Positions 3,751-29,973 of a stretch of DNA of 55,616 bases are shown piece after piece. The stretch lies in IMG/VR virus record IMGVR_UViG_3300045242_000161, positions 1 through 55,616 of that record, one strand, 5' to 3'. This stretch comes from a virus. Numbering within the stretch: position 1 is the stretch's first letter; every line of letters begins with the position of its first letter. Made by a program: the position numbers and the translations under genes. Below the pieces are notes generated by a model. The model was given only the letters and a program-made list of their open reading frames with translations, did not search any database and was not told the DNA's origin.

Positions 3751-3951
3751 GTGGCTTCTAATATTGATCCGACCAAACCGACGTATGGCAAAGCCTATAC
3801 CTCTGAAGTGAGGAAGAATTTCCAGTATGCTAAAGACGAAATTGAAGAGCTTCAGAAAGGGACCTTTGCAGTGATGAATTTGCCTAAGTCAAACGCTGGT
3901 CTCCCGCCAGGTGCATTGTGGAATAATGGAGGGTTTGTATGTATCGTTTGA
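3751..3951 (+). CDS. Small tail-fibre attachment protein (IDPTKP module only)
   Basis: A 66-residue protein from a GTG start with a good ribosome site (AAGGAGAA). Residues 1-35 (starting ASNIDPTKPTYGKAYTSEV) are clearly paralogous to the N-termini of the proteins at 5842 and 6840. The conserved pattern is IDPTKP, then an N-F-x-x-A-K-x-E-I-E-x-L-Q helix. The C-terminus (LPPGALWNNGGFVCIV) is short and resembles the end of tail-fibre proteins. It overlaps the next gene by 13 bp. It is probably a minor virion component or adaptor. Function is inferred from the shared module and position. Confidence 0.65.
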   Translation: MASNIDPTKPTYGKAYTSEVRKNFQYAKDEIEELQKGTFAVMNLPKSNAGLPPGALWNNGGFVCIV

Positions 3952-5633: not shown

Positions 5634-5852
5634 TTGAAACGGCTACTCATCGTGTTGGTTTCAGTTGTTAGTCATGGTGCACTGGCCCAAGATCAACAGC
5701 CAACATCAAATGAAGCTAAGGCTCTTGGTTCTATGGTTGTAGAAGCAGCACAGAGAGAAGCTCAATTGAGAGCCCAAGTATTTGCATTACAAGATGAAAT
5801 TACTCGCCTCAAGACCCAGAACAAAGTTGTGGAGAATAAGAATGGCCAGTAA
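5634..5852 (+). CDS. Small exported coiled-coil protein
   Basis: 72 residues from a TTG start preceded by GGAGAGGG. Residues 1-18 form a signal peptide (ending GALA/QDQ). The rest is a charged helix (QREAQLRAQVFALQDEITRL) with heptad spacing, so it is probably a periplasmic coiled coil. Two roles fit: a minor component of the tail-fibre cluster, or an inner-membrane spanin-like lysis protein if the signal is not cleaved. There is no lipobox cysteine. It overlaps the next gene by 11 bp. Neither role is proven. Confidence 0.6.
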   Translation: MKRLLIVLVSVVSHGALAQDQQPTSNEAKALGSMVVEAAQREAQLRAQVFALQDEITRLKTQNKVVENKNGQ

Positions 5853-6825
5853 TATTGATCCAACCAAGCCGAATGGACCTGTTGCGTATACCTCTGATAT
5901 GCGTACCAATTTTACGGCGGCTAAATCAGAAATAGAAGCGTTACAAGGGTCTGTTCAGAACATTCCGCCCGGAGCAATAACACTGCCATTGATGGATGGA
6001 ACTGCGACTATTGGTGTATCTACTTCTTGGGCACATGCTGATCATGTTCATCCTACAGATACCTCTAGAGCAGCAGCAACTGCTTTGGCAAGTTATCTGC
6101 CTTTGGCTGGAGGAACGGTTACTGGTAATACTACATTCAATGGAATAAACACTTTCGGCTCAGCAAACGTCTTTTCCGGAACTGGTAATGCTATTGATGT
6201 TACCAATAGTGCCAGAGTTCAAACGCTACTTAATATTGGCACTACTACAATAGGTGGTGCTATTTGGATGAATGGACCTGCTGGAAACGCTAGGTCACTT
6301 AGATGGAATACTGCAGGAGTTGTTCATTGGCAATTTGGATTGAATGCGGCTGCTGAATCTGGTGGTAATGTTGGCGCTGATATGTCATTCAGTAGATATG
6401 ATGATACTGGAGTGGCTATGGGCGCTGCTATCCAGTTCATCAGATCAACTGGATTAGTGAACATATTTAATGGCCTCTCATTAACCAGCAATACCGTTAC
6501 AACAAATACAGATAACAGTAAACATCTTGGTTTGTTCGGAACAACTGCTGGTATCAATGTCAATAATGCCTCCGCTAGACAGAATTACGTTTCTACTGGC
6601 GCGAATGCCCATTACTTCGTTGTTGGAGTTACAGACGCAATCAGTATAGATGGCACTGGTCTAAATGTAATTGTGGGTGGGGTGTCAGGACGATCCGGCG
6701 CTGCGGCTCCAACCACCGCACAATTACCTGCCGGTAAGAGTATCGTTTGGAAGAACACTACTGATGCTACTGTGAAATTGTATTACAATGATGGCGGAAC
6801 TATGCGCTCTGTAACCCTGGCCTAG
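5842..6825 (+). CDS. Tail fibre protein with IDPTKP attachment module
   Basis: 327 residues, starting at the ATG at 5842 (GGAG 7 bases upstream) rather than at the longer open frame from 5782. Residues 1-37 are the shared IDPTKP attachment module. Next comes TSWAHADHVHPTDTSRA, the common collar sequence of phage tail fibres, and then a repetitive beta-fibre (LPLAGGTVTGNTTFNG). The C-terminus (WKNTTDATVKLYYNDGGTMR) resembles fibre tips. It probably trimerises. It lies in the adhesin cluster downstream of the baseplate genes. Confidence 0.78.
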   Translation: MASNIDPTKPNGPVAYTSDMRTNFTAAKSEIEALQGSVQNIPPGAITLPLMDGTATIGVSTSWAHADHVHPTDTSRAAATALASYLPLAGGTVTGNTTFNGINTFGSANVFSGTGNAIDVTNSARVQTLLNIGTTTIGGAIWMNGPAGNARSLRWNTAGVVHWQFGLNAAAESGGNVGADMSFSRYDDTGVAMGAAIQFIRSTGLVNIFNGLSLTSNTVTTNTDNSKHLGLFGTTAGINVNNASARQNYVSTGANAHYFVVGVTDAISIDGTGLNVIVGGVSGRSGAAAPTTAQLPAGKSIVWKNTTDATVKLYYNDGGTMRSVTLA

Positions 6826-6839
6826 TAGGAGATTATCTT

Positions 6840-7247
6840 ATGACAAGCATGATAGATCCAACCAAACCAACACAGGGATCTGCTCTTACCGCAGATGTTC
6901 GTGCCAACTTTTCTGCTGCTAAACAGGAGATTGAGTCCTTGCAGACGAGCGGTCTCGGTGGAGGTGGAGTGCAGAAAACAGACCATTCAGGATACATTAT
7001 CATGGGAGGACAGGCACAGAGTCTAATGCCTGCCAATCCTAATCGTCGTGGCTGGTCATTCCAAAACAAGTCGCTCTCCGACATGTATTTCAATGATCTT
7101 GGAACTGCTGCTGATCCGGCGCTCGCCAATTCCGTTTATCTCCCACCAGGAGCATATTATGAGAGTGAAATAGGAGGTGCCTCTGTAGCCGCCATTTCAC
7201 TTTACGGTTCACAGACATTCGCTAACTTTGTAGCGAAGGAGTGGTAA
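6840..7247 (+). CDS. Short tail protein with IDPTKP attachment module and small C-terminal domain
   Basis: 135 residues, preceded by AGGAGA. Residues 1-35 (SMIDPTKPTQGSALTADVRA) are the third copy of the attachment module. Residues 50-135 form a compact beta domain (PNRRGWSFQNKSLSDMYFND ... VYLPPGAYYES), which resembles small virion decoration domains common near fibre tips. It could attach another protein, such as the following glycine-rich protein, to the tail. The role is inferred from the module and context. Confidence 0.65.
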   Translation: MTSMIDPTKPTQGSALTADVRANFSAAKQEIESLQTSGLGGGGVQKTDHSGYIIMGGQAQSLMPANPNRRGWSFQNKSLSDMYFNDLGTAADPALANSVYLPPGAYYESEIGGASVAAISLYGSQTFANFVAKEW

Positions 7248-9634: not shown

Positions 9635-9849
9635 GTGATCTTCCAGAAGCCTCAGAACCTATTCCGGGCAACACACAGATGGCGCTCGATGAAGGTTACA
9701 TGCCTGACATAGATGGATTCCGTCTATTTTGTAAGAGTAAGATTGAGGAGCAAAACATTTCACTACACTACCGCTCAACTGCTCTGGCTAAGATGGATGA
9801 GATGATCTTGGCGATCAAGCTGGGATTGGAGGAGAAGGCTAATGTCTGA
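9631..9849 (+). CDS. Small hypothetical tail-cluster protein
   Basis: 72 residues. The ATG at 9631 overlaps the preceding stop (ATGA), so it is preferred over the upstream frame start at 9598. It is acidic and helical in its second half (ALAKMDEMILAIKLGLEEK), without signal peptide or membrane segment. It overlaps the next gene by 8 bp, so it is translationally linked to the esterase and the following putative depolymerase. It may be a chaperone or adaptor for one of them. No family recognised. Confidence 0.6.
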   Translation: MSDLPEASEPIPGNTQMALDEGYMPDIDGFRLFCKSKIEEQNISLHYRSTALAKMDEMILAIKLGLEEKANV

Positions 9850-11584
9850 TTCTATCAAGAACGATATCACGATCACAGTTACTGGGTCTATTGACTTTAG
9901 TGGCACGGTCGATGCAGAGTTCATTGTGACGTTGCCTGATACTCCTCCGCCGACACCTGAACCGACACCACCACCTACACCAGAGCCTACTCCTCCACCA
10001 ATACCTTCGGCGGATACACTAATTGTCGAACTCACCTACCAGGGCAAGGTGTACCTATTTGATGAAAGTTTTGGGATTGATTTAGGTGATTATGTAGAAC
10101 CGGGCGGGCACTTCGTTCAATTGTGTATGCTGACTACACATCCTGAGCTCCCTGGTTTCCGCGTAATGTTCCGCCCGGACAGCAGTGGACAACGCGAAGA
10201 AATTGTATTTGAACTCGGCATGCTACACTCTGGCACACCTGTTAATATGGTGGACTATACAGTAGTAATCAAGCGTGCCGATCAGACGGTGACTACAATA
10301 CAGGCACCGTGCCATTACTGGAACTCGCGTTGGCGGTGGCAGTCAGCACCAAGACCCATCATCTACCCTGTAGATGATTTGTTGGGTAACCTACTGCCTA
10401 TGTACAGTGAAGATTTGTTCGGTAGTAAACTTCCCCTGTCGTTACCGCGTCAATATCTCGGTCCGATGGATCTGGCGGGCATCCAACCCTACATCCCATC
10501 AACTGGCGAGAGAGACGAGATCGGCATCTGCACAGAAGGGCAGGCAGAATACCTGTGCCAAAGAACGACAACCGCCTGGAGTTCTGTACAGGCGTGGCTC
10601 GAAGCGTCGGGTACGATACCTTGGCACTTCCGCGATGAGAAAACCAACGCCCCTATCGACGTGAATGAGTATCCTCAAGCAACGATGTATGGATCGTCTG
10701 GCGATCCCTTGATCAAGAATCCAACATCACCTATCACCTTGGATGTTTCACACATGGGATCGTTTGCCTATGTTCCCTTCGTCCTAACTGGTGATCCGTA
10801 TGCATTGGAAGAAATGCAGTTCTATACGACATACAGTATAATAATGCAATCGCCTAGTGCACGCCAGAACTGGAACCTCGGCAATGCGGTCAGAGCAGTT
10901 GCATGGTCGTTGCGCGCTCTGATGCATAACGCAACGGTTACTCCTGATGAAATCCCTTCTTGGTTGAAGTCGAAACAGTATTTCAAAACACTGCTCGACC
11001 AGGAACGTGACTGGTTCATGAGTAGATTCGTCAATGCTACTACTGCACCGTTTAACAATCTCAATTTGGTGAGTGATGGTAAGGGTGGACCTGCATCACC
11101 TCCGCTTCCACCGGATACCTATGTCAGCGTATGGATGGAGGACTTCCTGACGGCCGTGTTGGGTTGGATCGTTCAACTAGGCCATAATGACTGGTTGCCT
11201 ATACTGCAGTGGAAAGCCGCCGACGCTGTAGCCAGAACTAGCGGTAAGTCGGGATGGGTGCGAGCCGTTCCTACCATGTATCAAATGGCTATCAAATTGG
11301 ATACCAATGCACAGGTAGCCTACGATTGGGGTGCGTGTTGGGAAGCCAACGAACGACTACAGCCAACCAAGTGTGAATACGCGGACAAAGATATCATGCC
11401 AACCACCGTCAGTTTGACGTATCCTTCATATATGTTGGGGTCACTTGGACTGGCTGCGCCCGTGGGAATTGCGGATGCCCCAGAATGTTATGAGTGGCTC
11501 CTTGAGCAGATACAACATAACACCACCAACAATAGTTATATTCGGAGAAGATGGGCAGTTGCTACTGGTCCGGTTTCTGTTTAG
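9842..11584 (+). CDS. Putative tail-associated polysaccharide-degrading protein with proline-rich linker
   Basis: 580 residues. Residues 1-33 are a small beta segment. Residues 33-57 form a PTPEPTPPP linker. A beta domain of about 100 residues follows. From about residue 190 there is a tryptophan-rich helical region with repeated helical hairpins (SHMGSFAYVPFVLTGDPYAL; NAVRAVAWSLRALMHNA; DTYVSVWMEDFLTAVLGWIV) that looks like an alpha/alpha-toroid, as in six-hairpin glycosidases and polysaccharide lyases. No catalytic residue can be assigned by eye. The linker and location suggest a virion depolymerase. Confidence 0.5.
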   Translation: MSDSIKNDITITVTGSIDFSGTVDAEFIVTLPDTPPPTPEPTPPPTPEPTPPPIPSADTLIVELTYQGKVYLFDESFGIDLGDYVEPGGHFVQLCMLTTHPELPGFRVMFRPDSSGQREEIVFELGMLHSGTPVNMVDYTVVIKRADQTVTTIQAPCHYWNSRWRWQSAPRPIIYPVDDLLGNLLPMYSEDLFGSKLPLSLPRQYLGPMDLAGIQPYIPSTGERDEIGICTEGQAEYLCQRTTTAWSSVQAWLEASGTIPWHFRDEKTNAPIDVNEYPQATMYGSSGDPLIKNPTSPITLDVSHMGSFAYVPFVLTGDPYALEEMQFYTTYSIIMQSPSARQNWNLGNAVRAVAWSLRALMHNATVTPDEIPSWLKSKQYFKTLLDQERDWFMSRFVNATTAPFNNLNLVSDGKGGPASPPLPPDTYVSVWMEDFLTAVLGWIVQLGHNDWLPILQWKAADAVARTSGKSGWVRAVPTMYQMAIKLDTNAQVAYDWGACWEANERLQPTKCEYADKDIMPTTVSLTYPSYMLGSLGLAAPVGIADAPECYEWLLEQIQHNTTNNSYIRRRWAVATGPVSV

Positions 11585-11595
11585 GAGTCATGTGA

Positions 11596-12657
11596 ATGCC
11601 AGCTAATTGGTTCAACCGCTTCACGAAATGGTGGGCTTCGAGCGGCACACTGCAAGATCCTTCGGATACGCAGGCTGCCGCTGGCTGGTCCTTCATCGGC
11701 CAGGCCCCACCGACTGTAGAGCAGTTTAATTCCGTCCAGCAGTGGAACGACCAGAAGGATAACTACCTCTTCAATCAGATTGGGAGCGTATTAACTTGGG
11801 GTGGTCAAACAGCAACTGATACTAACCCCAATACACTACGCGATGCTATTAGCGGTAAGATGAAGATTGTGCTTACTGCATCTACCAATTACTATGTTGA
11901 TCTAGCTGGTAATGATTCTACTGGAAATGGAACGGTTGGTAATCCTTGGAGAACAATACAATTTGCTGTTAATTGGATAACAAATCACATTGATGCTGCT
12001 GGTTGGCAAGTCAACATTCAGTTGAAGACTGCGGGAACTTATGCTCAAGCCTATTTTGGTATTCCAATTAACGGCAATTTTATAATTACTGGAGACAAAC
12101 TTAATCCAAGAAACTATATTGTCAAAAATCTTGATGGGCCTGCTGTAGTAGCTACCCAAAGTGCTGTTGTTATCTTAATAGGCATTTCATTAGAAGCAAC
12201 TGGACAAGCCACAGGAGCACCAGATTATAAGACTGTAGGACACGGAATATATGCTGCTCGTGGGGCTGTTATTTATTATGATGCTGTTGCATTGGGCCCT
12301 TGCACTCATGTTCAAATGGTGGCTGAGACTGGAGCGGTTATATTTCCACTTAATGGTTTATCAACTACACTGAGTGCTTATGGCGGAGGTCAATCTTTTG
12401 CCACTGCTAATGCCGGTGGTGCTGTAGTATTGCAATCAATTCCAACTACATTTACTGGCACTGTCAATTATACTGCTGCTACCGTTCAAGCATCCCAAGC
12501 AGGAACTATAAATGCAATAGCCTGGGCTCCTACAGGAACTGTTACTGGTCCTAAATGGAGTGTATTTCTTAATGGCGTTTTGATAACAAATGTTGCTGGT
12601 GCTAATATTCCAGGCAGCACAGCAGGACAAGTAGTCTCTGGCGGTCAACTACAATAG
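11596..12657 (+). CDS. Tail spike-like protein with right-handed beta-helix
   Basis: 353 residues. Residues 1-75 (MPANWFNRFTKWWASSGTLQ, with a conserved W-S-F-I-G-Q-A-P segment) form a virion attachment region. From residue 97, YYVDLAGNDSTGNGTVGNPW followed by TIQFAVNWI matches the start of DUF1565/pectate-lyase-like beta-helix domains. The C-terminus ends in a small beta domain (VFLNGVLITNVAGANIPGS). It is likely a trimeric spike binding or cleaving host polysaccharide. Codon use changes to AT-rich at about nt 11810, matching the domain border, so the helix was probably acquired separately. Confidence 0.7.
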   Translation: MPANWFNRFTKWWASSGTLQDPSDTQAAAGWSFIGQAPPTVEQFNSVQQWNDQKDNYLFNQIGSVLTWGGQTATDTNPNTLRDAISGKMKIVLTASTNYYVDLAGNDSTGNGTVGNPWRTIQFAVNWITNHIDAAGWQVNIQLKTAGTYAQAYFGIPINGNFIITGDKLNPRNYIVKNLDGPAVVATQSAVVILIGISLEATGQATGAPDYKTVGHGIYAARGAVIYYDAVALGPCTHVQMVAETGAVIFPLNGLSTTLSAYGGGQSFATANAGGAVVLQSIPTTFTGTVNYTAATVQASQAGTINAIAWAPTGTVTGPKWSVFLNGVLITNVAGANIPGSTAGQVVSGGQLQ

Positions 12658-12670
12658 TAGGAGAACAAAC

Positions 12671-12847
12671 ATGTCTGATAAGCAGAACGATGAAGTTGTT
12701 ACGCCTCCGAATGTAGGTGTAATGTCAGCTGATATGTCAGTTCCTGATCAAGTCAGAGCGGACATAGAAGCATTACTTGAACAAGCAAATATAGAGATGG
12801 GGAGGACTCCCGCTGCCGGCCAGGAGCAATCTGGCAAACGTGACTGA
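12671..12847 (+). CDS. Small hypothetical acidic protein
   Basis: 58 residues from the ATG at 12671, preceded by TAGGAGAAC. It begins SDKQNDEVVTPPNVGVMSAD and has a short amphipathic helix (VRADIEALLEQANIEMG). It overlaps the next, membrane-protein gene by 8 bp, so the two are probably co-translated. No signal or membrane segment. Its position between spike and membrane protein would suit a lysis regulator or a minor tail protein, but nothing in the sequence decides this. Confidence 0.5.
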   Translation: MSDKQNDEVVTPPNVGVMSADMSVPDQVRADIEALLEQANIEMGRTPAAGQEQSGKRD

Positions 12848-13043
12848 AGAACAACGAGGCATCTCTGGTCTTGCTAATAAAGTAATAGGCTCTTTACCAG
12901 CCCAATTTTTAATGCTGATACTGATCAACATGATATTCATAGGCGGTCTAATTTGGTTTCTTGATCGTAGAGACAGTGCCAGAGAACGTATGCTCATCCC
13001 CATACTTGCCGCCTGCCTGAAAGGAGGTAGTCCAATTCAATGA
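12840..13043 (+). CDS. Single-span membrane protein, possible holin
   Basis: 67 residues from a GTG start overlapping the previous stop. A polar N-terminus (MTEEQRGISGLANKVIGSLP) is followed by one strong membrane helix (FLMLILINMIFIGGLIWFL) and a basic segment DRRDSARER. This topology fits a small holin or another inner-membrane protein expressed at the end of the late operon. No endolysin gene sits next to it, which weakens the holin call. It is the last gene before a 194-bp gap. Confidence 0.5.
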   Translation: MTEEQRGISGLANKVIGSLPAQFLMLILINMIFIGGLIWFLDRRDSARERMLIPILAACLKGGSPIQ

Positions 13044-13193: not shown

Positions 13194-13237
13194 TGAGGAG
13201 CGTGCATGCCGCCTACTAACGCGTATGGAGATGACAA

Positions 13238-13885
13238 ATGACTAAGTACCTGCTCGCCTCAGTCGCCCTGTTCGGCCTGGCCACCACACAGGCCAACGCT
13301 GCACTCATCGCGTCGTTCAGTCAGAACCCGTCAGCTACCCCAACCGTCAATGCTACTGATAACGGCACGACAACCAACATCACCATTGGCAGTGTTTCCA
13401 CCAGCGTCACGGCCGGTGCCAATGTTGTGCCGAATGCGTTCTTCTCCCTAGCCGCCACCAGCATCGACGCCGCCGTCCAGATTGGTGCAGCCGTGATCCA
13501 GCACTACAACGGTAACTTCTGCATCACCTCGGCGGCCGGTTGCGGAGGCACCAACTTCCTCTCAGGCGTGTTCTCCGACGCAGCATTCGGTGCACTGGGC
13601 GGTCCCGGCCTGGCCGTGAACGTCAACAATCCGCCCGACACTTTGACGTTGACATCGTCGGTGGTCCCGGCATCGAGCCTCCAACCGCCATCGGCGTTCA
13701 ACCTGGGCTTCGTCGATCTGGCGCCCTTGCTGCATATCGACGGTAGCACCATCGCGGCGTTCACTGCCGACTTCGCAGGTAACGTGTCGTCCTCCGTCGA
13801 GGCACCCGAGCCAATGTCGATCGCCCTACTCGGCATGGGCCTGGTCGGCATCGGGATGGTCCGTTACCGCCACAAGAACGGATAG
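13238..13885 (+). CDS. Secreted PEP-CTERM domain protein (exosortase substrate)
   Basis: 215 residues. An N-terminal Sec signal (TKYLLASVALFGLATTQANA) is followed by a T/N/A/V-rich beta domain with one CITSAAGC cysteine pair. The C-terminus is a PEP-CTERM sorting signal: PEPMSIALLGMGLVGIG, then a basic tail MVRYRHKNG. In bacteria this tripartite signal is recognised by an exosortase, and the cleaved proteins are surface or exopolysaccharide-associated. The gene is visibly GC-richer than the adjacent tail genes, as expected for recent transfer from a host. It has its own candidate promoter upstream and structured sequence downstream. A host surface-modifying moron is the best guess. Confidence 0.85.
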   Translation: MTKYLLASVALFGLATTQANAALIASFSQNPSATPTVNATDNGTTTNITIGSVSTSVTAGANVVPNAFFSLAATSIDAAVQIGAAVIQHYNGNFCITSAAGCGGTNFLSGVFSDAAFGALGGPGLAVNVNNPPDTLTLTSSVVPASSLQPPSAFNLGFVDLAPLLHIDGSTIAAFTADFAGNVSSSVEAPEPMSIALLGMGLVGIGMVRYRHKNG

Positions 13886-14182: not shown

Positions 14183-14306
14183 GACGCGGTTACAAAACGC
14201 GCAAGGCATAGGCCCTCTCCTAGGCAACATGCGAACGATGAGCTTCTGAGCTATGATAGACAAGCCTCAGGGGTGGACCCGCTACCCATATAGCGGGTCC
14301 CTTTTT
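14183..14306 (+). ncRNA. Candidate small RNA (about 124 nt) between a TATAAT promoter and an intrinsic terminator
   Basis: The segment begins about 7 bp after TATAAT and ends at a perfect 10-bp terminator stem with T-tract. Internal pairings are visible: GCAT/ATGC with TAGG-CCCTCT-CCTA presents the pyrimidine loop CCCUCU, and CTGAG/CTCAG closes a second arm. The CCUCUCCU stretch is complementary to Shine-Dalgarno sequences, so a translation-repressing sRNA is possible. No + strand open frame with a ribosome site occurs inside. The function is inferred; only the promoter, the stems and the terminator are seen. Confidence 0.6.
14275..14306 (+). terminator. Intrinsic terminator
   Basis: Stem GGACCCGCTA (14275-14284), loop CCCATA, stem TAGCGGGTCC (14291-14300), then C and five T. 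It is a perfect 10-bp GC-rich stem with U-tract only in the + orientation, ending the candidate sRNA and protecting the convergent - strand operon. Confidence 0.85.
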
Positions 14307-17830: not shown

Positions 17831-19776
17831 TTCGAGTCTCCCCAGGTTGCGGCTACTTTACTATCGACAACAACAGGTATCTCCAACTGCACACAGTCTT
17901 CCATGATCGAGGCCTGTTCCCGTGCTACCCTCTCACTGGTTACCGAGAATCCAAGCGCGTCGTGTTCCGTGATCAGCGGTAGGTGACCGGCACGATAGCA
18001 GTTGACCATAGCCTGCTTCGTTTGATCCGCTGCCGATCCCTGAATCCGTCTATTGAGCGCCTTATTCAGGAACATATACTCACCGCCTCGCATAGGGAAG
18101 CGGCATCTGCGGTTGTATATGGTGGTGATGTAACCGAGCTGCTTAACCATCGTCTGAGCATCTCTAGCCAAAGGCTGGACGAATGGCACACGTTCATAGA
18201 ATCTATCGAGCAGGGCTTGGCCCTCGGTTCCAGCAACTTCGACGGTTCGACCATTGATCACTTTATGGGTGGTAGGTAGACCTAATTCATGGCAGAGTTT
18301 AGCACCGCCCATGCCGTATGTAATGCCCAAGAATATCGTCTTGGCGTGTTGGCGGGAAATGCCGCCCATCCATTTGGCACACATACCGTGATAGTCGGTT
18401 CGTGGATTCTCGTTGAAGATCTTAACTGCTTCCGCGGCCCCGCGTAACCGCAATATAGACGCGTAGTGCAAGGATAGCCGCGGCTCCTGTGATGAATAAT
18501 CGGCATTGTGCCACAATTCACCTTCTTCCGGCAACATGAGACAGCGGACTAGTTTCTTGATCTCTTCATCGCGCGATGGCAGTTGTTGAAAGTTCGGGTT
18601 AGACGATGAGAACCGGCCCGTAACAGTGCCGTAACCGCTTCCATCGTCATCTTCGCGTCGTAGAGGATGAAACTCAGGGTGGATTCGTCCGTTCTTGACA
18701 TGGCGGAATACATGTCCGTCGATGAAGGTGGTCCTCGCCTTGTTGTATCTCCGCAGTTCCAGTATGTCTCCAATGACGGAGGATTGTGTGGCGTTTTCTT
18801 CAAGCCAATTCTTCTGGACGGAGGGTTTGTCCGTCTTGGTCCGAGGTAAGGAGATGCCGGCCTGTACACAGGCTCGCGCGATCGTCTCATTCTCCCACGC
18901 CGATACGAGGACTCCTGTGGCATTTTGAATACGCCTGATGCAGTCGAGTTCTTTGTTTTGGAGTTTGATCCTTGCCTGTTCCGCTGCATCGAGATCAACA
19001 CGAACGCCGCGCATACGCATCGCCACACAGACGGTGATGACATCACGCTCTAGGTCTGCGAGCTCTTTCAGCCCTTGTTGAGCGATCTGCGGTTTGAAGA
19101 AGTCGTATAGTCTCAGGGCTAGAGTCGCGTCCATCTCGGCATACGGCCCAACGTACTTGGCAGGCAATCTCCAGAGATTGTCGTATATATTTTTGACGCC
19201 GTAACCCCCGGCAACCTTCTGTAGGAGAGAGTCGTCTTTGCCAACCCCAAGGATATCCTTGGAGAGATTGTCCAGGGAGTATGACAGACGGTTCTCGTCC
19301 AGGAGAGCGGCGAGACCTTGTACGTCAACCGCACCATTGTAAGGTCTGATCCCCATACGGTTGCACCAGCCCAGGTCGTAAAGCGAATTGGCGGCAACCA
19401 TCTGCACATTAGATCTACCCAACTGCTCACGGAGCCAGGCGATTACGTCTCCGTCGAAGTTGCCTTCGGGATGACGAATCGCGTAATAGGCCGATCGACC
19501 ACAGGAAGCCACCGCAACTCCGATTGGGTAATCGTCAGCGGTTGGGAAGGCCCAAGCACTACCGACTGTTGTAAGGGTGGTATCTCGGGTTTCCCAGTCA
19601 ATTGCGGTTACTCCTTCTATCGGGATGAATTCCGTAGGTGGCACCCAGTTAGACTCATAGTTAGGCGTGATCATTCCCTTGGGCTCGAATAGCGTTGTGC
19701 CGCCCACCGTTGGGCGTGTCGCGGTCCTGACAGGAGTGCGTGTGGGTTTGGCTGGTTCGTCCCAGAAAAGATTCAT
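17827..19776 (-). CDS. DNA polymerase A family with 3'-5' exonuclease domain
   Basis: 649 residues, replicative polymerase. Exonuclease motifs: AIDWET (D60, E62), NSLYD (D134) and YAEMD (D216). Polymerase motifs: A, DYSSQEPRL (D426); B, KTIFLGITYG (about 479-488); then NRRIQGSAAD (576-585); and C, EHDALGF (H605-D606). There is no 5'-3' nuclease domain. Two differences from PolA consensus are notable: motif A has SQEPR instead of SQIELR, and motif C has Ala607 where Glu is usual. The gene overlaps QueE by 4 bp and leads into a 50-residue coupled gene, within the QueF-DpdA-clamp-QueE-polymerase operon. Confidence 0.93.
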   Translation of the reverse strand: MNLFWDEPAKPTRTPVRTATRPTVGGTTLFEPKGMITPNYESNWVPPTEFIPIEGVTAIDWETRDTTLTTVGSAWAFPTADDYPIGVAVASCGRSAYYAIRHPEGNFDGDVIAWLREQLGRSNVQMVAANSLYDLGWCNRMGIRPYNGAVDVQGLAALLDENRLSYSLDNLSKDILGVGKDDSLLQKVAGGYGVKNIYDNLWRLPAKYVGPYAEMDATLALRLYDFFKPQIAQQGLKELADLERDVITVCVAMRMRGVRVDLDAAEQARIKLQNKELDCIRRIQNATGVLVSAWENETIARACVQAGISLPRTKTDKPSVQKNWLEENATQSSVIGDILELRRYNKARTTFIDGHVFRHVKNGRIHPEFHPLRREDDDGSGYGTVTGRFSSSNPNFQQLPSRDEEIKKLVRCLMLPEEGELWHNADYSSQEPRLSLHYASILRLRGAAEAVKIFNENPRTDYHGMCAKWMGGISRQHAKTIFLGITYGMGGAKLCHELGLPTTHKVINGRTVEVAGTEGQALLDRFYERVPFVQPLARDAQTMVKQLGYITTIYNRRCRFPMRGGEYMFLNKALNRRIQGSAADQTKQAMVNCYRAGHLPLITEHDALGFSVTSERVAREQASIMEDCVQLEIPVVVDSKVAATWGDSK

Positions 19777-20462
19777 GGTATCTCCAGATATTTGTGGATC
19801 TGTAACTGGGCCGTGTAACCGTATTGCATAGCGGTTCTGGCGACTAAGGCACGGTTGTTGCCGTTGGTATTTTCTTCCGGTGTGTCAACCGGTGTTATGT
19901 AGACTGTTGAGTTAGGAGGCGGACGGGAGAGAAAAACCTTCGGCCCATCTGTTCTTTGCGTGTTGGTGTAAGGTAATCCATCGGAACTGTCAGTGTGCCC
20001 CTCCAGCAGGGGGTACTTCCAATACTTGGCGTGTTCCCGAATCTTTGGATGGACTAATGGAGTTTTTGGCGATACTACTATGGTGGTTGCCAGTAACCAA
20101 TCCTGCCAAATAACTCCTGCCGTTTCTACCTGTATTGGATAGCCGGCAGACCAGAGCAGTTCAACAAGTTTCAGGAGGTTCTGTCGGCAGGGTTCTCCTC
20201 CTGTCAGGACTACCAAGGTTTCCTTACGTCTTGCGAGTTCTTTAATCTGCCGGAACATCTCATCCGGAGACATATATGGATCACGGTCATCATCCCACTG
20301 TGTATCACACCACCAACATCTCAGGTTACAACCGCTCATCCGAACGAAGACGGCACGCTGTCCGGAGAATGGGCCCTCTCCCTGTAGTGTCAGGAAGATC
20401 TCATGGACCTGTAGGCGGTCGGGGTTGGTCTCTTTGGCACGAACAGGATTAGTTCCGCGCAT
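19773..20462 (-). CDS. queE: 7-carboxy-7-deazaguanine synthase (radical SAM)
   Basis: 229 residues. Converts 6-carboxytetrahydropterin to 7-carboxy-7-deazaguanine. The radical-SAM cluster motif CNLRCWWC (C45, C49, C52) is followed by DTQWD, and LTGGEPCRQ is the glycine-rich SAM motif. The N-terminal FLTLQGEGPFSGQRAVFVR fits QueE, where Q-G-E-G-x-x-x-G binds substrate. The gene overlaps both neighbours (sliding clamp upstream by 14 bp, polymerase downstream by 4 bp), so base synthesis and DNA synthesis are co-expressed. It is intact. Confidence 0.93.
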   Translation of the reverse strand: MRGTNPVRAKETNPDRLQVHEIFLTLQGEGPFSGQRAVFVRMSGCNLRCWWCDTQWDDDRDPYMSPDEMFRQIKELARRKETLVVLTGGEPCRQNLLKLVELLWSAGYPIQVETAGVIWQDWLLATTIVVSPKTPLVHPKIREHAKYWKYPLLEGHTDSSDGLPYTNTQRTDGPKVFLSRPPPNSTVYITPVDTPEENTNGNNRALVARTAMQYGYTAQLQIHKYLEIP

Positions 20463-24634: not shown

Positions 24635-24663
24635 TATATAATGCGAGATCGCACAATTCACAA
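24635..24663 (-). promoter_or_regulatory. TTGTGA-N17-TATATA promoter
   Basis: -35 TTGTGA (24663-24658) overlaps the queD stop codon; 17-bp spacer; -10 TATATA (24640-24635). The spacer contains the near-palindrome TGCGA-GA-TCGCA (24642-24653), an operator candidate. It drives the 92-residue gene. Confidence 0.65.
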
Positions 24664-25125
24664 GGAGAAGGATGCCCAACAATTGGGCGTTTCAAAAACA
24701 GTTACTTTGAATATCCCAGGAACCGCCTTTTGCAACCGGTAGTACCAAAGCTCTGAGAGTCGCTCTGCGGTTGGAGCGTGTTCGATCAGAGTGAGCTTGG
24801 TGAAGAAGGGCTCGGACGGCAGTAAAGAAAAACACGGTCTAGGCACCACGCTAATCGGTGCGCCCGCGATTATCTCAGCCACAGGATCATTATACGCTAG
24901 GATCATCGCATGATCGAACGTAGCGTGGATGAGTTCCATCATCGCCTGTTTGATCGTTCCGAAGTCAGTCACCATATCGGATTCCGCACCGACGGTGACG
25001 AGCTCGCCGAAGACCGTTGCCTCGATCACATAGCGGTGGCCGTGGAGACCTTTGCACATGCCGCCATGCGTGGCGATACGATGCCCGGCGTCGATTTCGA
25101 TCCTACGTGTGATCTTGCTGATCAT
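24658..25125 (-). CDS. queD: 6-carboxytetrahydropterin synthase
   Basis: 155 residues. Converts dihydroneopterin triphosphate to 6-carboxytetrahydropterin, the second step to 7-deazaguanines. The zinc ligands H15 (DAGHRI), H28 and H30 (LHGHRY), the catalytic-type C24 (GGMCKG) and the DHAMIL Asp-His are present. The C-terminal ETPNCWASF provides the substrate-binding Glu. The ATG overlaps the QueC stop (ATGA), so the two enzymes are coupled. Slightly longer than the usual 120-140 residues owing to an insert near residue 85. Confidence 0.93.
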   Translation of the reverse strand: MISKITRRIEIDAGHRIATHGGMCKGLHGHRYVIEATVFGELVTVGAESDMVTDFGTIKQAMMELIHATFDHAMILAYNDPVAEIIAGAPISVVPRPCFSLLPSEPFFTKLTLIEHAPTAERLSELWYYRLQKAVPGIFKVTVFETPNCWASFSL

Positions 25126-25937
25126 ACAGCCCCCATTTCATGTGCGAGCAGATCTAGCTTGTAGTCGATCGTGCCCTTCAGGTTGTGTAGCCTCCGCACA
25201 ACCGCATAGTGAACACCGTCTGGACAGTTTATCTTGCCTTCAAAGGCTGCCCGCGCGATCATCGGATCCGGCACCGCCGCCACACGGAACCCTTCGGCCC
25301 GTAACACGGTTGCATGGTCCTGCGTAATAGGCGGATATTCTCCCGAATAGGCCGTGTGGGTGTATGCCAACGCCTTATAGCACCCAGGTAAGGTCATCGC
25401 GTATCGGATTGAATCGGCCTTAGATCGATACGCCAAAGGAGTGTGGATCTGTAACCGTGTATGCCCCTCACCAAGGGCAATATTTAACGCGTCTTCTGCC
25501 GATGCGATGAAAGAGCTACGGCAATCGGGATAATTGGCTGTATCCTCCTGTGATACGCCAATACCGATCTCCGTGGCACCGACGTGCACAGCATAGTTCG
25601 CAGCGAACACTAAGAAAATCAGGTTACGCATCGGCACGAATGTAAGTTCGGTCCGCCCACCAATAGTTTCAACCATCCTGGCGAAGCTCTCGTAAGTCTC
25701 TAGGGACTGTTTCTCATCCACCAGGGGAGAGGCGGACCAGAGTTTGTCGATACGGCAGAGATAGTGATCGCGGACGTTAGCAAGCCGGGCAACGTCAATT
25801 GCCGCCGACACCTCTATAGAGTGCTTTTGGTTGTAGTTGAACGTGATCGCGTGCATGACCTCGCACGTCTGTTTCATGTGGAACAGGACTGTTGTACTAT
25901 CCTGGCCACCGCTTAAAATACATAGACCAACTGTCAT
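25122..25937 (-). CDS. queC: 7-cyano-7-deazaguanine synthase QueC lacking the C-terminal zinc cysteines
   Basis: 271 residues from the ATG at 25937 (GGGAGGT ribosome site); the frame to 25994 is not needed. Makes preQ0 from 7-carboxy-7-deazaguanine with ATP and ammonia. The PP-loop is LSGGQDSTT (8-16). FVPMRNLIFLVFA and the ATEIGIGVSQEDTANYPDCR core are typical. In bacterial QueC, a zinc site of one Cys plus C-G-x-C-x-x-C follows the T-x-S-C-Y strand. Here that region reads THTAYSGEYPPITQDHATVL, without any cysteine, before the conserved RAEGFRVAAVPDP end. The fold may be stabilised differently. Coupled to QueD. Confidence 0.9.
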   Translation of the reverse strand: MTVGLCILSGGQDSTTVLFHMKQTCEVMHAITFNYNQKHSIEVSAAIDVARLANVRDHYLCRIDKLWSASPLVDEKQSLETYESFARMVETIGGRTELTFVPMRNLIFLVFAANYAVHVGATEIGIGVSQEDTANYPDCRSSFIASAEDALNIALGEGHTRLQIHTPLAYRSKADSIRYAMTLPGCYKALAYTHTAYSGEYPPITQDHATVLRAEGFRVAAVPDPMIARAAFEGKINCPDGVHYAVVRRLHNLKGTIDYKLDLLAHEMGAV

Positions 25938-25948
25938 GTGAACCTCCC

Positions 25949-26782
25949 TCAAAAGGGGATGTTGTCGTCTATCTTCTCCTGGTCGCGGTTCCACGTTGGA
26001 CCGTCGTCTACTTGATTGCCGTATTTGGGATCATAGGCATCGTCAGTTGCACCCGGCGGTGCCGTGACGGTTACAGACCCCTCACCAACCGCCTTGCGGA
26101 ATATGCGTGCCTTGTTCAGGAGCATGATGCCGTTGGGGTATGCGGACACGGTCTGCAGTGGTGTCGTCTCCCAGCCGTACCAGTCATTCTTGTCGTTGCT
26201 CTCGTGCACGCTCGTCAGTTTGAAGACGCGCGCGTAGATCGGTGCCGGATACGGGCCCTTATCATCCTGCAGTTCGAAGTTCTGTAGCAGTGCGTTCCAG
26301 CGCCGCGCTTTCTTCCACTGTGTGCTGCCCATAGAGATCAACGCCGGTGTGACTTCGTTTTCGTTTATGTGCAATACATAGTAGGTAGCCAGGGACACGA
26401 TCTCATTCCCCGCACGCGTTAGCCGGGTGAAGTTCGGACCCTCCGACGCATTGTTATAGGCGCTATCGTCACTGCCCCAGTCCCGCACCAAACCGCCACG
26501 ATCGGGCTTCCATTCGACGTATCGCCGTTGGAAACGGCACGGTATCACCAACACCTCTTTGAAGAGTTGGTGGGTGACCGTGTTGAAGATATCGCCGGAC
26601 AGGGCCTCTTTGATATACTCAGGCCTAACCGACTTACGCTGCGGGCTCAGGTCCTGGATGATCGTGAGGAATGGTAGGACGATGTCTTCAACGGCAAACG
26701 CCTCACGGTCCTCGGAGTGTTCGCGCATGGAGAACGCCTTGGTGGCGATCTCCTTGTTATCGGTCGGAATAACATCAGACAT
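25949..26782 (-). CDS. Putative single-stranded DNA-binding protein
   Basis: 277 residues from the ATG at 26782 (GGAGCCC upstream). The core has VLPFLTIIQDLSPQRKSVRP, GDIFNTVTHQLFKEVLVIPC, and an OB-like beta-rich region with aromatics (WKPDRGGLVRDWG; NDWYGWETTPL). The C-terminus is acidic and ends KIDDNIPF, very close to the DDDIPF tip with which bacterial SSB recruits partners. The family is widespread in phages without a firm name. Overlaps the upstream coiled-coil gene and is 12 bp before QueC, so it belongs to the QueC-QueD transcript. Confidence 0.6.
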   Translation of the reverse strand: MSDVIPTDNKEIATKAFSMREHSEDREAFAVEDIVLPFLTIIQDLSPQRKSVRPEYIKEALSGDIFNTVTHQLFKEVLVIPCRFQRRYVEWKPDRGGLVRDWGSDDSAYNNASEGPNFTRLTRAGNEIVSLATYYVLHINENEVTPALISMGSTQWKKARRWNALLQNFELQDDKGPYPAPIYARVFKLTSVHESNDKNDWYGWETTPLQTVSAYPNGIMLLNKARIFRKAVGEGSVTVTAPPGATDDAYDPKYGNQVDDGPTWNRDQEKIDDNIPF

Positions 26783-28280: not shown

Positions 28281-29312
28281 TTATACGAATGAAGTGGTCA
28301 ACCAGGCGACGGCGAACTCAGGCAGCCCGTCGGTTAGATAACCGCGGATCTCAAACTGGGTGGCGGTTGTTGTAGCCACCGACCCCGTCGTCATGCGAAC
28401 CGGAACGTGATAGGTTGCGTTCGCGCCACGGCCCTCGCGCACTACGTTGATGCCCCGACTGCGAATATCACTAATCATGGACGAGATCGTCGCCATCTCC
28501 CAGCCCGTCAGGCTGGCGAGTTCAGCGGCGGTTGTGCGCCGCGCGATCACTGCTGTGCAGCAGAGTGCATTCTTCGTGCCGGAGCGGTAGGGGTTGATGA
28601 CGGGCTCCACCACCATCGCTGGGGCTGCTTCACCATTGCGTGGGGTCCGCATCTTCGCCACCGTCTCGTTGACGAAGAAGACCAAGAAAGCGATCCAACT
28701 GGCCACGCGTGCGGAGTCCAGCGTAGACTCATGCATCCGAAACTCGATGGTGCCCAGGTCCCCCAACCGCATCGTGTTGACACTCGCATACCGCGTGCCG
28801 TGGATGCCCGACGGCCGCATGTAAGAAGCTGCACTCCCCACCACCAGGTTCCAGGCATTCTGCATCGACCGGCTGCTCATCGCAGGGCAGTAATGCGGAT
28901 TGTTCTGCCGATGTTCGGGGAAGTGCTGCATGATTTCAGTTTCGAACTGGCCGTAGCGCCAAACCACCGCCGCCTGCTCGGCTGGGCTAAGGTCGCGGGC
29001 ATCAACATGAACATGGATGCCACACCGCTGATTGGTGACATAACCGTTGGTGCGAAGAAGGTCCACGACCTTCACCACTTCGGCCCGACCACGAGCGTCC
29101 TTGAGCTTGGGGCTCACCAACTCAACGCCACGATCGTAGCCGATCGAGCCGTCGGTCTTGGCGCTCCAGTTGCGGTGCGCGTTACGCTGGAAGTAACCGC
29201 GGGCCGAAGTGCTTACACCATTTTCAGTGAGCAACCTCGCGGCGGAGGCTGTCGGACTCGGCGTATGCGGAGGCGACCAGCACTCGATCTCAACTCCAAA
29301 GTAGCGTCCCAT
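28281..29312 (-). CDS. Amidoligase with C-terminal winged-helix-like domain
   Basis: 343 residues. The amidoligase family (glutamine synthetase/gamma-glutamylcysteine ligase fold) is shown by RYFGVEIECWSPP, WSAKTDGSIGYDRGVELVSP, NQRCGIHVHVDARDLSP, YASVNTMRLGDLGTIEFRMH. These ATP-dependent enzymes form amide bonds between a carboxylate and an amine. Residues about 260-320 (RRTTAAELASLTGWEMATIS ... GINVVREGRGANATYHV) look like a winged helix used for DNA or RNA binding, an unusual fusion. It is first in a two-gene unit with the GGCT gene, under promoter 29351-29379. Substrate cannot be read from sequence. Confidence 0.82.
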   Translation of the reverse strand: MGRYFGVEIECWSPPHTPSPTASAARLLTENGVSTSARGYFQRNAHRNWSAKTDGSIGYDRGVELVSPKLKDARGRAEVVKVVDLLRTNGYVTNQRCGIHVHVDARDLSPAEQAAVVWRYGQFETEIMQHFPEHRQNNPHYCPAMSSRSMQNAWNLVVGSAASYMRPSGIHGTRYASVNTMRLGDLGTIEFRMHESTLDSARVASWIAFLVFFVNETVAKMRTPRNGEAAPAMVVEPVINPYRSGTKNALCCTAVIARRTTAAELASLTGWEMATISSMISDIRSRGINVVREGRGANATYHVPVRMTTGSVATTTATQFEIRGYLTDGLPEFAVAWLTTSFV

Positions 29313-29406: not shown

Positions 29407-29973
29407 TCATTTAGTCTTTTCTGCCGCCAGACACAGCTGTAGAAACTCGGCGCGAGCAGAAGGCTCGTCACGGAAACACCCGAGCATCGCACTGGTGGTG
29501 GTCACCGACTGGTGGAGCTTAACGCCACGACTCGACATGCAGCCGTGCTCAGCGCGTATGAGCACACCGACGCCTAGCGGTTCTAGGTTGCGTGAGAGGC
29601 AGTCCGCCACCTGCATAGTGATACGCTCCTGGACCTGAAGGCGGGCGGCGTAGGCTTCGACCACGCGGGCCAGTTTGGAGAGTCCTACAATCTTACCGGA
29701 TGGCACGTAACCGACATGTGCGGTTCCGATGATCGGGGCCAGGTGGTGTTCACAGTAACTGTGCACGTCAATCCCGTGGACGATTACCATCGCGTCGTAA
29801 TCGTTATCATTCTCGAAGGTCTTCAACAATTCGTCCGGGTTGATAGAGTAGCCACGCATCCAATACCGCCACGCCTCGGCGGCACGTCGCGGTGTCTCAA
29901 ATAGGCTGGGACGGTTGACATCCTCACCCGTAGCATGGATTAATTCGATGAAGATGTCTTCTAACTGCTTCAT
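29407..29973 (-). CDS. folE: GTP cyclohydrolase I
   Basis: 188 residues. Converts GTP to dihydroneopterin triphosphate, the entry step to 7-deazaguanines. FolE signatures: VHSYCEHHLAPIIGTAHVGY (zinc Cys and His, GTP-binding), GLSKLARVVEAYA, QVQERITMQVAD, and RAEHGCMSSRGV (second zinc Cys, His). Length is close to the bacterial enzyme. It follows the row of small membrane-protein genes with a 1-base overlap of its ATG with their last stop. With QueD, QueE, QueC and QueF it completes the preQ1 pathway. Confidence 0.95.
   Translation of the reverse strand: MKQLEDIFIELIHATGEDVNRPSLFETPRRAAEAWRYWMRGYSINPDELLKTFENDNDYDAMVIVHGIDVHSYCEHHLAPIIGTAHVGYVPSGKIVGLSKLARVVEAYAARLQVQERITMQVADCLSRNLEPLGVGVLIRAEHGCMSSRGVKLHQSVTTTSAMLGCFRDEPSARAEFLQLCLAAEKTK

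Follow-up and report, generated by a model that had tools for sequence, protein, structure and literature searches.

A mobile family of late genes in tailed phages encodes proteins with a PEP-CTERM sorting tag

The window analysed here comprises 55,616 nucleotides (positions 1 to 55,616 of the IMG/VR record IMGVR_UViG_3300045242_000161) and represents a contractile-tailed phage, with genes for sheath, baseplate wedge, family-A DNA polymerase, prim-pol and QueC/QueD/FolE; neither a tyrosine integrase nor an exosortase was found in it. The PEP-CTERM gene under study, designated hereafter as P0001, extends from 13238 to 13885 (ATG to TAG) and encodes a polypeptide of 215 amino acids; it and the surrounding features are on the plus strand unless stated otherwise. 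A ribosome-binding site, GGAG, was recognised in the sequence at 13227..13230, 7 nt 5' of the ATG. By inspection, the N-terminus MTKYLLASVALFGLATTQANA^A is a classical Sec signal peptide, with residues 1–21 (13238..13300) predicted to be removed after ANA. The ectodomain that follows (residues 22–186; 13301..13795) is beta-rich as judged by the AF2 model and by composition, contains two Cys and no Lys or Arg in its mature form, and has a combined T, S and N content of 31%, vs 18.6% in the other open reading frames of the window. Bacterial PEP-CTERM proteins have bodies of this composition, rich in T, S and N and poor in K and R (Haft et al. 2006, PMC1569441). The C-terminus, PEPMSIALLGMGLVGIGMVRYRHKNG, comprises the PEP motif (residues 190–192; 13805..13813), a transmembrane helix predicted by the tag models and by AF2 (residues 193–208; 13814..13861) and the basic tail RYRHK (residues 209–213; 13862..13876). 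The initial annotation had described 13238–13885 as a complete PEP-CTERM signature, and signal peptide, beta-rich body, PEP, membrane helix and basic tail are indeed all present.

The AF2 model of P0001 (mean pLDDT 89.7, and about 90–97 across most of the ectodomain) consists of a helix at residues 2–13, a beta body at 21–186 and a C-terminal helix at 193–214. A Foldseek search with it returned nothing at E <= 0.001; comparison with allene-oxide-cyclase-like and dirigent barrels gave a VIA Z of 9.2 at best (rmsd 3.4, 132 residues aligned), too low for a confident assignment of the fold. Without the tag, the ectodomain had no credible family match. The tag itself scored close to the thresholds: TIGR02595 matched with 16.7 bits (cut-off 16), whereas PF07589 was missed in hmmscan (16.4 bits, cut-off 20.7) and reached 20.4 bits in the genome search, or 20.7 bits with frame neighbours, a marginal pass. 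Taken alone, the tag on P0001 is thus borderline, so that the decision had to come from its relatives.

P0001 lies beyond the end of the late tail operon, which closes with a tail fibre gene (11596..12657; phrog_17640, 5.7e-7). The neighbourhood had initially been described as an adhesin and depolymerase cluster; the upstream tail-fibre matches agree with the first part of that description, and no depolymerase family was matched. A 580-amino-acid tail-region protein is encoded at 9842..11584 and had no Pfam, PHROG or PDB match. Proteins of this kind, of about 580–660 amino acids, recur near the PEP-CTERM genes of otherwise different phages (L012 8101–9837, L017 4218–6179, L019 1761–3752), again with no family match. 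Just 5' of P0001, a protein of 67 amino acids with a single membrane span (12840..13043) is holin-like by eye only and matched neither PHROG nor Pfam. A consensus scan, in which the number of terminators found was not above that in shuffled sequences, placed a terminator-like hairpin with a T run 3' of P0001 (14105..14121) and a strong 10-pair one ahead of the convergent early genes (14275..14300). Elsewhere in the window, three neighbouring tail proteins (3751–3951, 5782–6825 and 6840–7247) have near-identical starts (IDPTKP..G.A.T.DVR.NF..AK.EIE.LQ), a pattern that duplication or exchange of an attachment domain might leave. The minus strand carries Radical-SAM (QueE-like), QueD, QueC and FolE genes (19773–20462, 24658–25125, 25122–25994 and 29407–29973), which form a preQ0 pathway, likely to serve guanine modification in phage DNA or tRNA, and, in the early region, a gene for an Amidoligase_2 protein (28281–29312; Pfam 3e-22). 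No anti-phage-defence family was matched.

Relatives of P0001 were found among uncultured viruses in IMG/VR, at 47–76% identity: 28 with the protein, 104 with its profile and 114 with a profile of the ectodomain only, the viral records being mostly fragments. More than 100 other uncultured phage sequences thus carry this family. No convincing PHROG match was obtained for its members, and P0001 itself had no match in plasmids or GenBank phages. Two scans of 84,980 prokaryote genomes, one with the protein and one with the profile, turned up no relative; they used short peptide patterns that distant cellular relatives could escape. Alignment showed the signal peptide, also seen by inspection in the aligned relatives, to be the least conserved part of the family, and the stretch GGPGLAVNVNNPPD (residues 121–134; 13598..13639) to be the most conserved in the alignments A1 and A2; in the ectodomain core, the majority residue accounts for 79%. 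Lys and Arg are wholly missing from the ectodomains of 24 of 28 members. In 18 close pairs dN/dS was 0.07–0.29, indicating purifying selection and hence a functional gene.

The ectodomain-only profile had been built without tag and signal peptide, and its search was therefore blind to the tag and gave an unbiased test of tag retention. EP, a hydrophobic stretch and a basic tail end 61 of the 62 distinct ectodomains. The background in the same loci was 81 tag-like sequences among 7,358 distinct open reading frames, nearly all of them family members or tandem PEP-CTERM genes, which by subtraction leaves only a few that arose by chance. E191 and P192 are invariant in all 49 aligned members, with the full PEP in 42, and each aligned member has 2–5 Arg or Lys among its last 16 residues. 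PF07589 matched each of the 18 proteins in the first alignment (best 3e-7), relatives scoring up to 34 bits, and the borderline tag of P0001 becomes secure because the members of its family carry it. The scores of P0001 against the tag models would also fit a protein that is no exosortase substrate, in which a tail merely resembling PEP-CTERM anchors a periplasmic block to the inner membrane against DNA entry of other phages; since EP is invariant in the family and common to unrelated tandem families, and a plain anchor needs no PEP, we consider this very unlikely. One family (L069 10001–10570, L070 96–665, L084 10001–10570) has kept the ectodomain and lost the PEP-CTERM tail, ending in AVPGR before the stop codon, and may represent a secreted, unsorted form of the protein.

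With baseplate, sheath, terminase, portal, capsid and DNA polymerase A genes surrounding P0001, the record is genuinely that of a phage, and the original reading of the gene as a phage-encoded substrate of exosortase type is borne out. P0001 differs in composition from its record, with a GC content of 61.6% vs 51% and a GC3 of 76% vs a genome average of 49%. Such a jump could mark an assembly chimera or host contamination, a prospect made negligible by the 114 viral relatives, against none found in the two prokaryote pattern scans, and by the position of relatives between terminase, portal and capsid genes; for the family, the more than 100 viral relatives, many of them between head genes, rule it out. 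The GC content had also been taken as host-like and as a sign of host origin. This did not hold up, as GC3 of the gene follows the GC of the phage throughout the family (r = 0.92; 44 contigs, 39 to 65% GC), from which we conclude that it has long resided in phages. The proposed comparison with host homologues found nothing to compare, and derivation from a host was rejected in view of the two pattern scans, which distant relatives could escape, and of the plasmid search. The near relatives of P0001 include the 61%-GC phage L012; together with the GC-rich window copy, this suggests that the latter may have come by transfer between phages.

The capsid of the window phage shares up to 87% identity with the capsids of other carriers, and its head–tail module has the common gene order TerS-TerL-portal-head-capsid-sheath (TerS being assigned from its position only). 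In phages with this module, the PEP-CTERM gene occupies seven different slots: before TerS (L005), between TerS and TerL (L009), between TerL and portal (L015, L016, L025, L031), between portal and the next head gene (L014), between two later head genes (L023), between capsid and the next gene (L036, L046 and L063, with which the fragments L013 and L029 agree) and, in the window, after the tail fibres. It is on the late strand in every phage of this syntenic group. Varied slots on a constant strand indicate that the gene is independently mobile and is retained among the late genes. Co-inheritance with terminase (r 0.35, Mantel p 0.007) or portal (r 0.36, p 0.04) was weak, in line with mixed vertical and horizontal descent. 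Six records are 22 kb or longer and have a capsid at least 79% identical to that of the window, and each of the six carries a PEP-CTERM gene; the one in G034, located in the TerL/portal slot, joins the same tag to an unrelated ectodomain. In 15 families from unrelated phages, a proline-rich protein of 150–240 amino acids with repeats like PDNTLPG and RPDQGLP (CL0) is encoded, often directly beside the PEP-CTERM gene (for example, L014 1662–2213, L015 10660–11169, L025 8765–9232, L036 9454–9939 and L063 1534–2064). A homing endonuclease neighbour was considered as the motor of mobility and dismissed, CL0 having no Pfam match and not being an HNH enzyme.

About a quarter of 57 families carry one or two further PEP-CTERM genes in the stretch fetched, mostly directly adjoining, which makes up to three per phage. 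L018 and L083 have three consecutive ones, and in L035 about 7 kb separate the two. Six tandem pairs show a 4-bp stop/start overlap, the mark of translational coupling. When two of the tandem families were compared with the P0001 family by profile, only the 28 columns of the tag aligned (the AF2 model of tandem family 2 was poor, with a pLDDT of 57, and was left out of the analysis). Unrelated bodies united by one tag point to selection on the sorting tag itself. Beside the PEP-CTERM gene of L022, a member of the bacterial exosortase-dependent family XDD4 is encoded (819–1583; 112 bits, cut-off 40). Near the cassettes of eight families are genes for proteins that look like right-handed beta-helices (CL14; for example, L059 8612–9634, L060 5589–6584, L074 8974–10110 and L081 8815–9978); the one tested had no Pfam match, and they are possible polysaccharide-acting partners. 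The number of PEP-CTERM genes per phage and the unrelated ectodomains with only the tag in common would also be expected of a decoy, an abundant late substrate that saturates the host exosortase, blocks sorting of the host's own PEP-CTERM proteins and leaves the matrix weaker by the time of lysis. The ectodomain, however, is well conserved and maintained by purifying selection, which a pure decoy would not require, and we regard this role as unlikely.

No exosortase scored above the cut-off in 22 phage records, so the enzyme of the host would have to act; a sub-threshold match in the L012 record was discarded, being antisense to a tail-fibre-like gene. The host would accordingly be expected to carry an exosortase, and its envelope would be altered during infection. 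A tyrosine integrase was absent from 19 of 21 records, which makes lysogenic conversion unlikely. In the account that we prefer, the PEP-CTERM gene would be late mobile cargo (a 'moron') of mostly strictly lytic tailed phages. Its product would leave the cytoplasm via the host Sec pathway and be held briefly in the inner membrane by the C-terminal helix, until host exosortase recognises it at PEP and frees it to the cell surface and the exopolysaccharide matrix, where the small beta-barrel-like ectodomain would alter the surface. The outcome would most likely be a lytic conversion, in which the infected cell, its debris and the nearby matrix are coated, so that progeny virions neither re-adsorb nor stay trapped. 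The export, cleavage and place of action that we infer for the P0001 product follow what is established about this pathway (Haft et al. 2006). We put the probability of the whole account, late mobile cargo sorted by host exosortase and acting in lytic conversion by surface coating, at roughly 55%.

Superinfection exclusion had been among the purposes first suggested. Known exclusion proteins, such as Llp of T5, are usually expressed early (PMC9586334), and the late position of the PEP-CTERM gene argues somewhat against exclusion in its usual form; it fits better with shielding of progeny or with matrix change. The latter, a tentative possibility, would have P0001 target the matrix instead of receptors and act like PepA, attaching loose polysaccharide to cells, or loosening it, and thereby promoting the clumping of infected cells or a wider spread of progeny. 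Overexpression of PepA in Aquincola converted soluble exopolysaccharide into bound polymer and restored flocs (PMC9850573), a precedent for this reading, which the beta-helix-like genes near the PEP-CTERM gene in eight families would also suit. Against it, no PepA model matched the ectodomain when taken alone, the weak PepA score of the whole protein is due to the tag, and no polysaccharide-binding family was found. With low confidence, we rank protection of progeny from re-adsorption, as in the surface-coating account, above matrix change.

Although the PEP-CTERM/exosortase pathway was recognised in 2006, what cells gain from it is, to our knowledge, still little understood. A large set of viral substrates, selected and repeatedly re-inserted, offers an independent way to learn what the pathway delivers and what makes this important in infection, and the phage proteins are small, defined substrates for a cleavage assay. 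The gene would also mark phages whose hosts should carry an exosortase, and sorting by exosortase would join the known routes by which phages alter the host surface. It is probable that lytic phages of exosortase-bearing bacteria use interchangeable late cassettes of virus-specific PEP-CTERM proteins, with the host exosortase as delivery route to the surface and matrix, a general strategy that is not known to have been named.

In the open-access literature on PEP-CTERM or exosortase in phages, viruses and prophages, only a passing mention was found: 13 TIGR03118 proteins, with a putative exosortase-interaction domain, were counted as horizontal transfers on Yellowstone viral contigs (PMC11003980). 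That report treats them as transfers of unknown function and describes no family, cassette or mechanism, and TIGR03118 was absent from the matches obtained for P0001. The flocculation-associated PepA (NF033554; PMC9850573) is of similar size and has the tag in common with P0001, which scored 33.1 bits against the 80 required for the whole protein; with the similarity confined to the tag, homology to PepA was rejected. The closest likeness is to bacterial substrates of exosortase (EpsH, XrtA), which have the same signal peptide, PEP, membrane helix and basic tail on otherwise unrelated bodies of the same compositional bias (PMC1569441). Unlike these, the P0001 family resides in late modules of tailed phages, no exosortase was found beside its genes, and its ectodomain was not found in cellular genomes by the pattern scans used. 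Phage T5 Llp and other exclusion lipoproteins (PMC9586334) differ from P0001 in their sorting route and in being early rather than late; the cleavage region of P0001, ANA^ALIA, has no lipobox Cys, none preceding C95, and no sequence relation is claimed. What P0001 and these lipoproteins may share is their role, that of a small exported protein by which a lytic phage alters the surface of its host.
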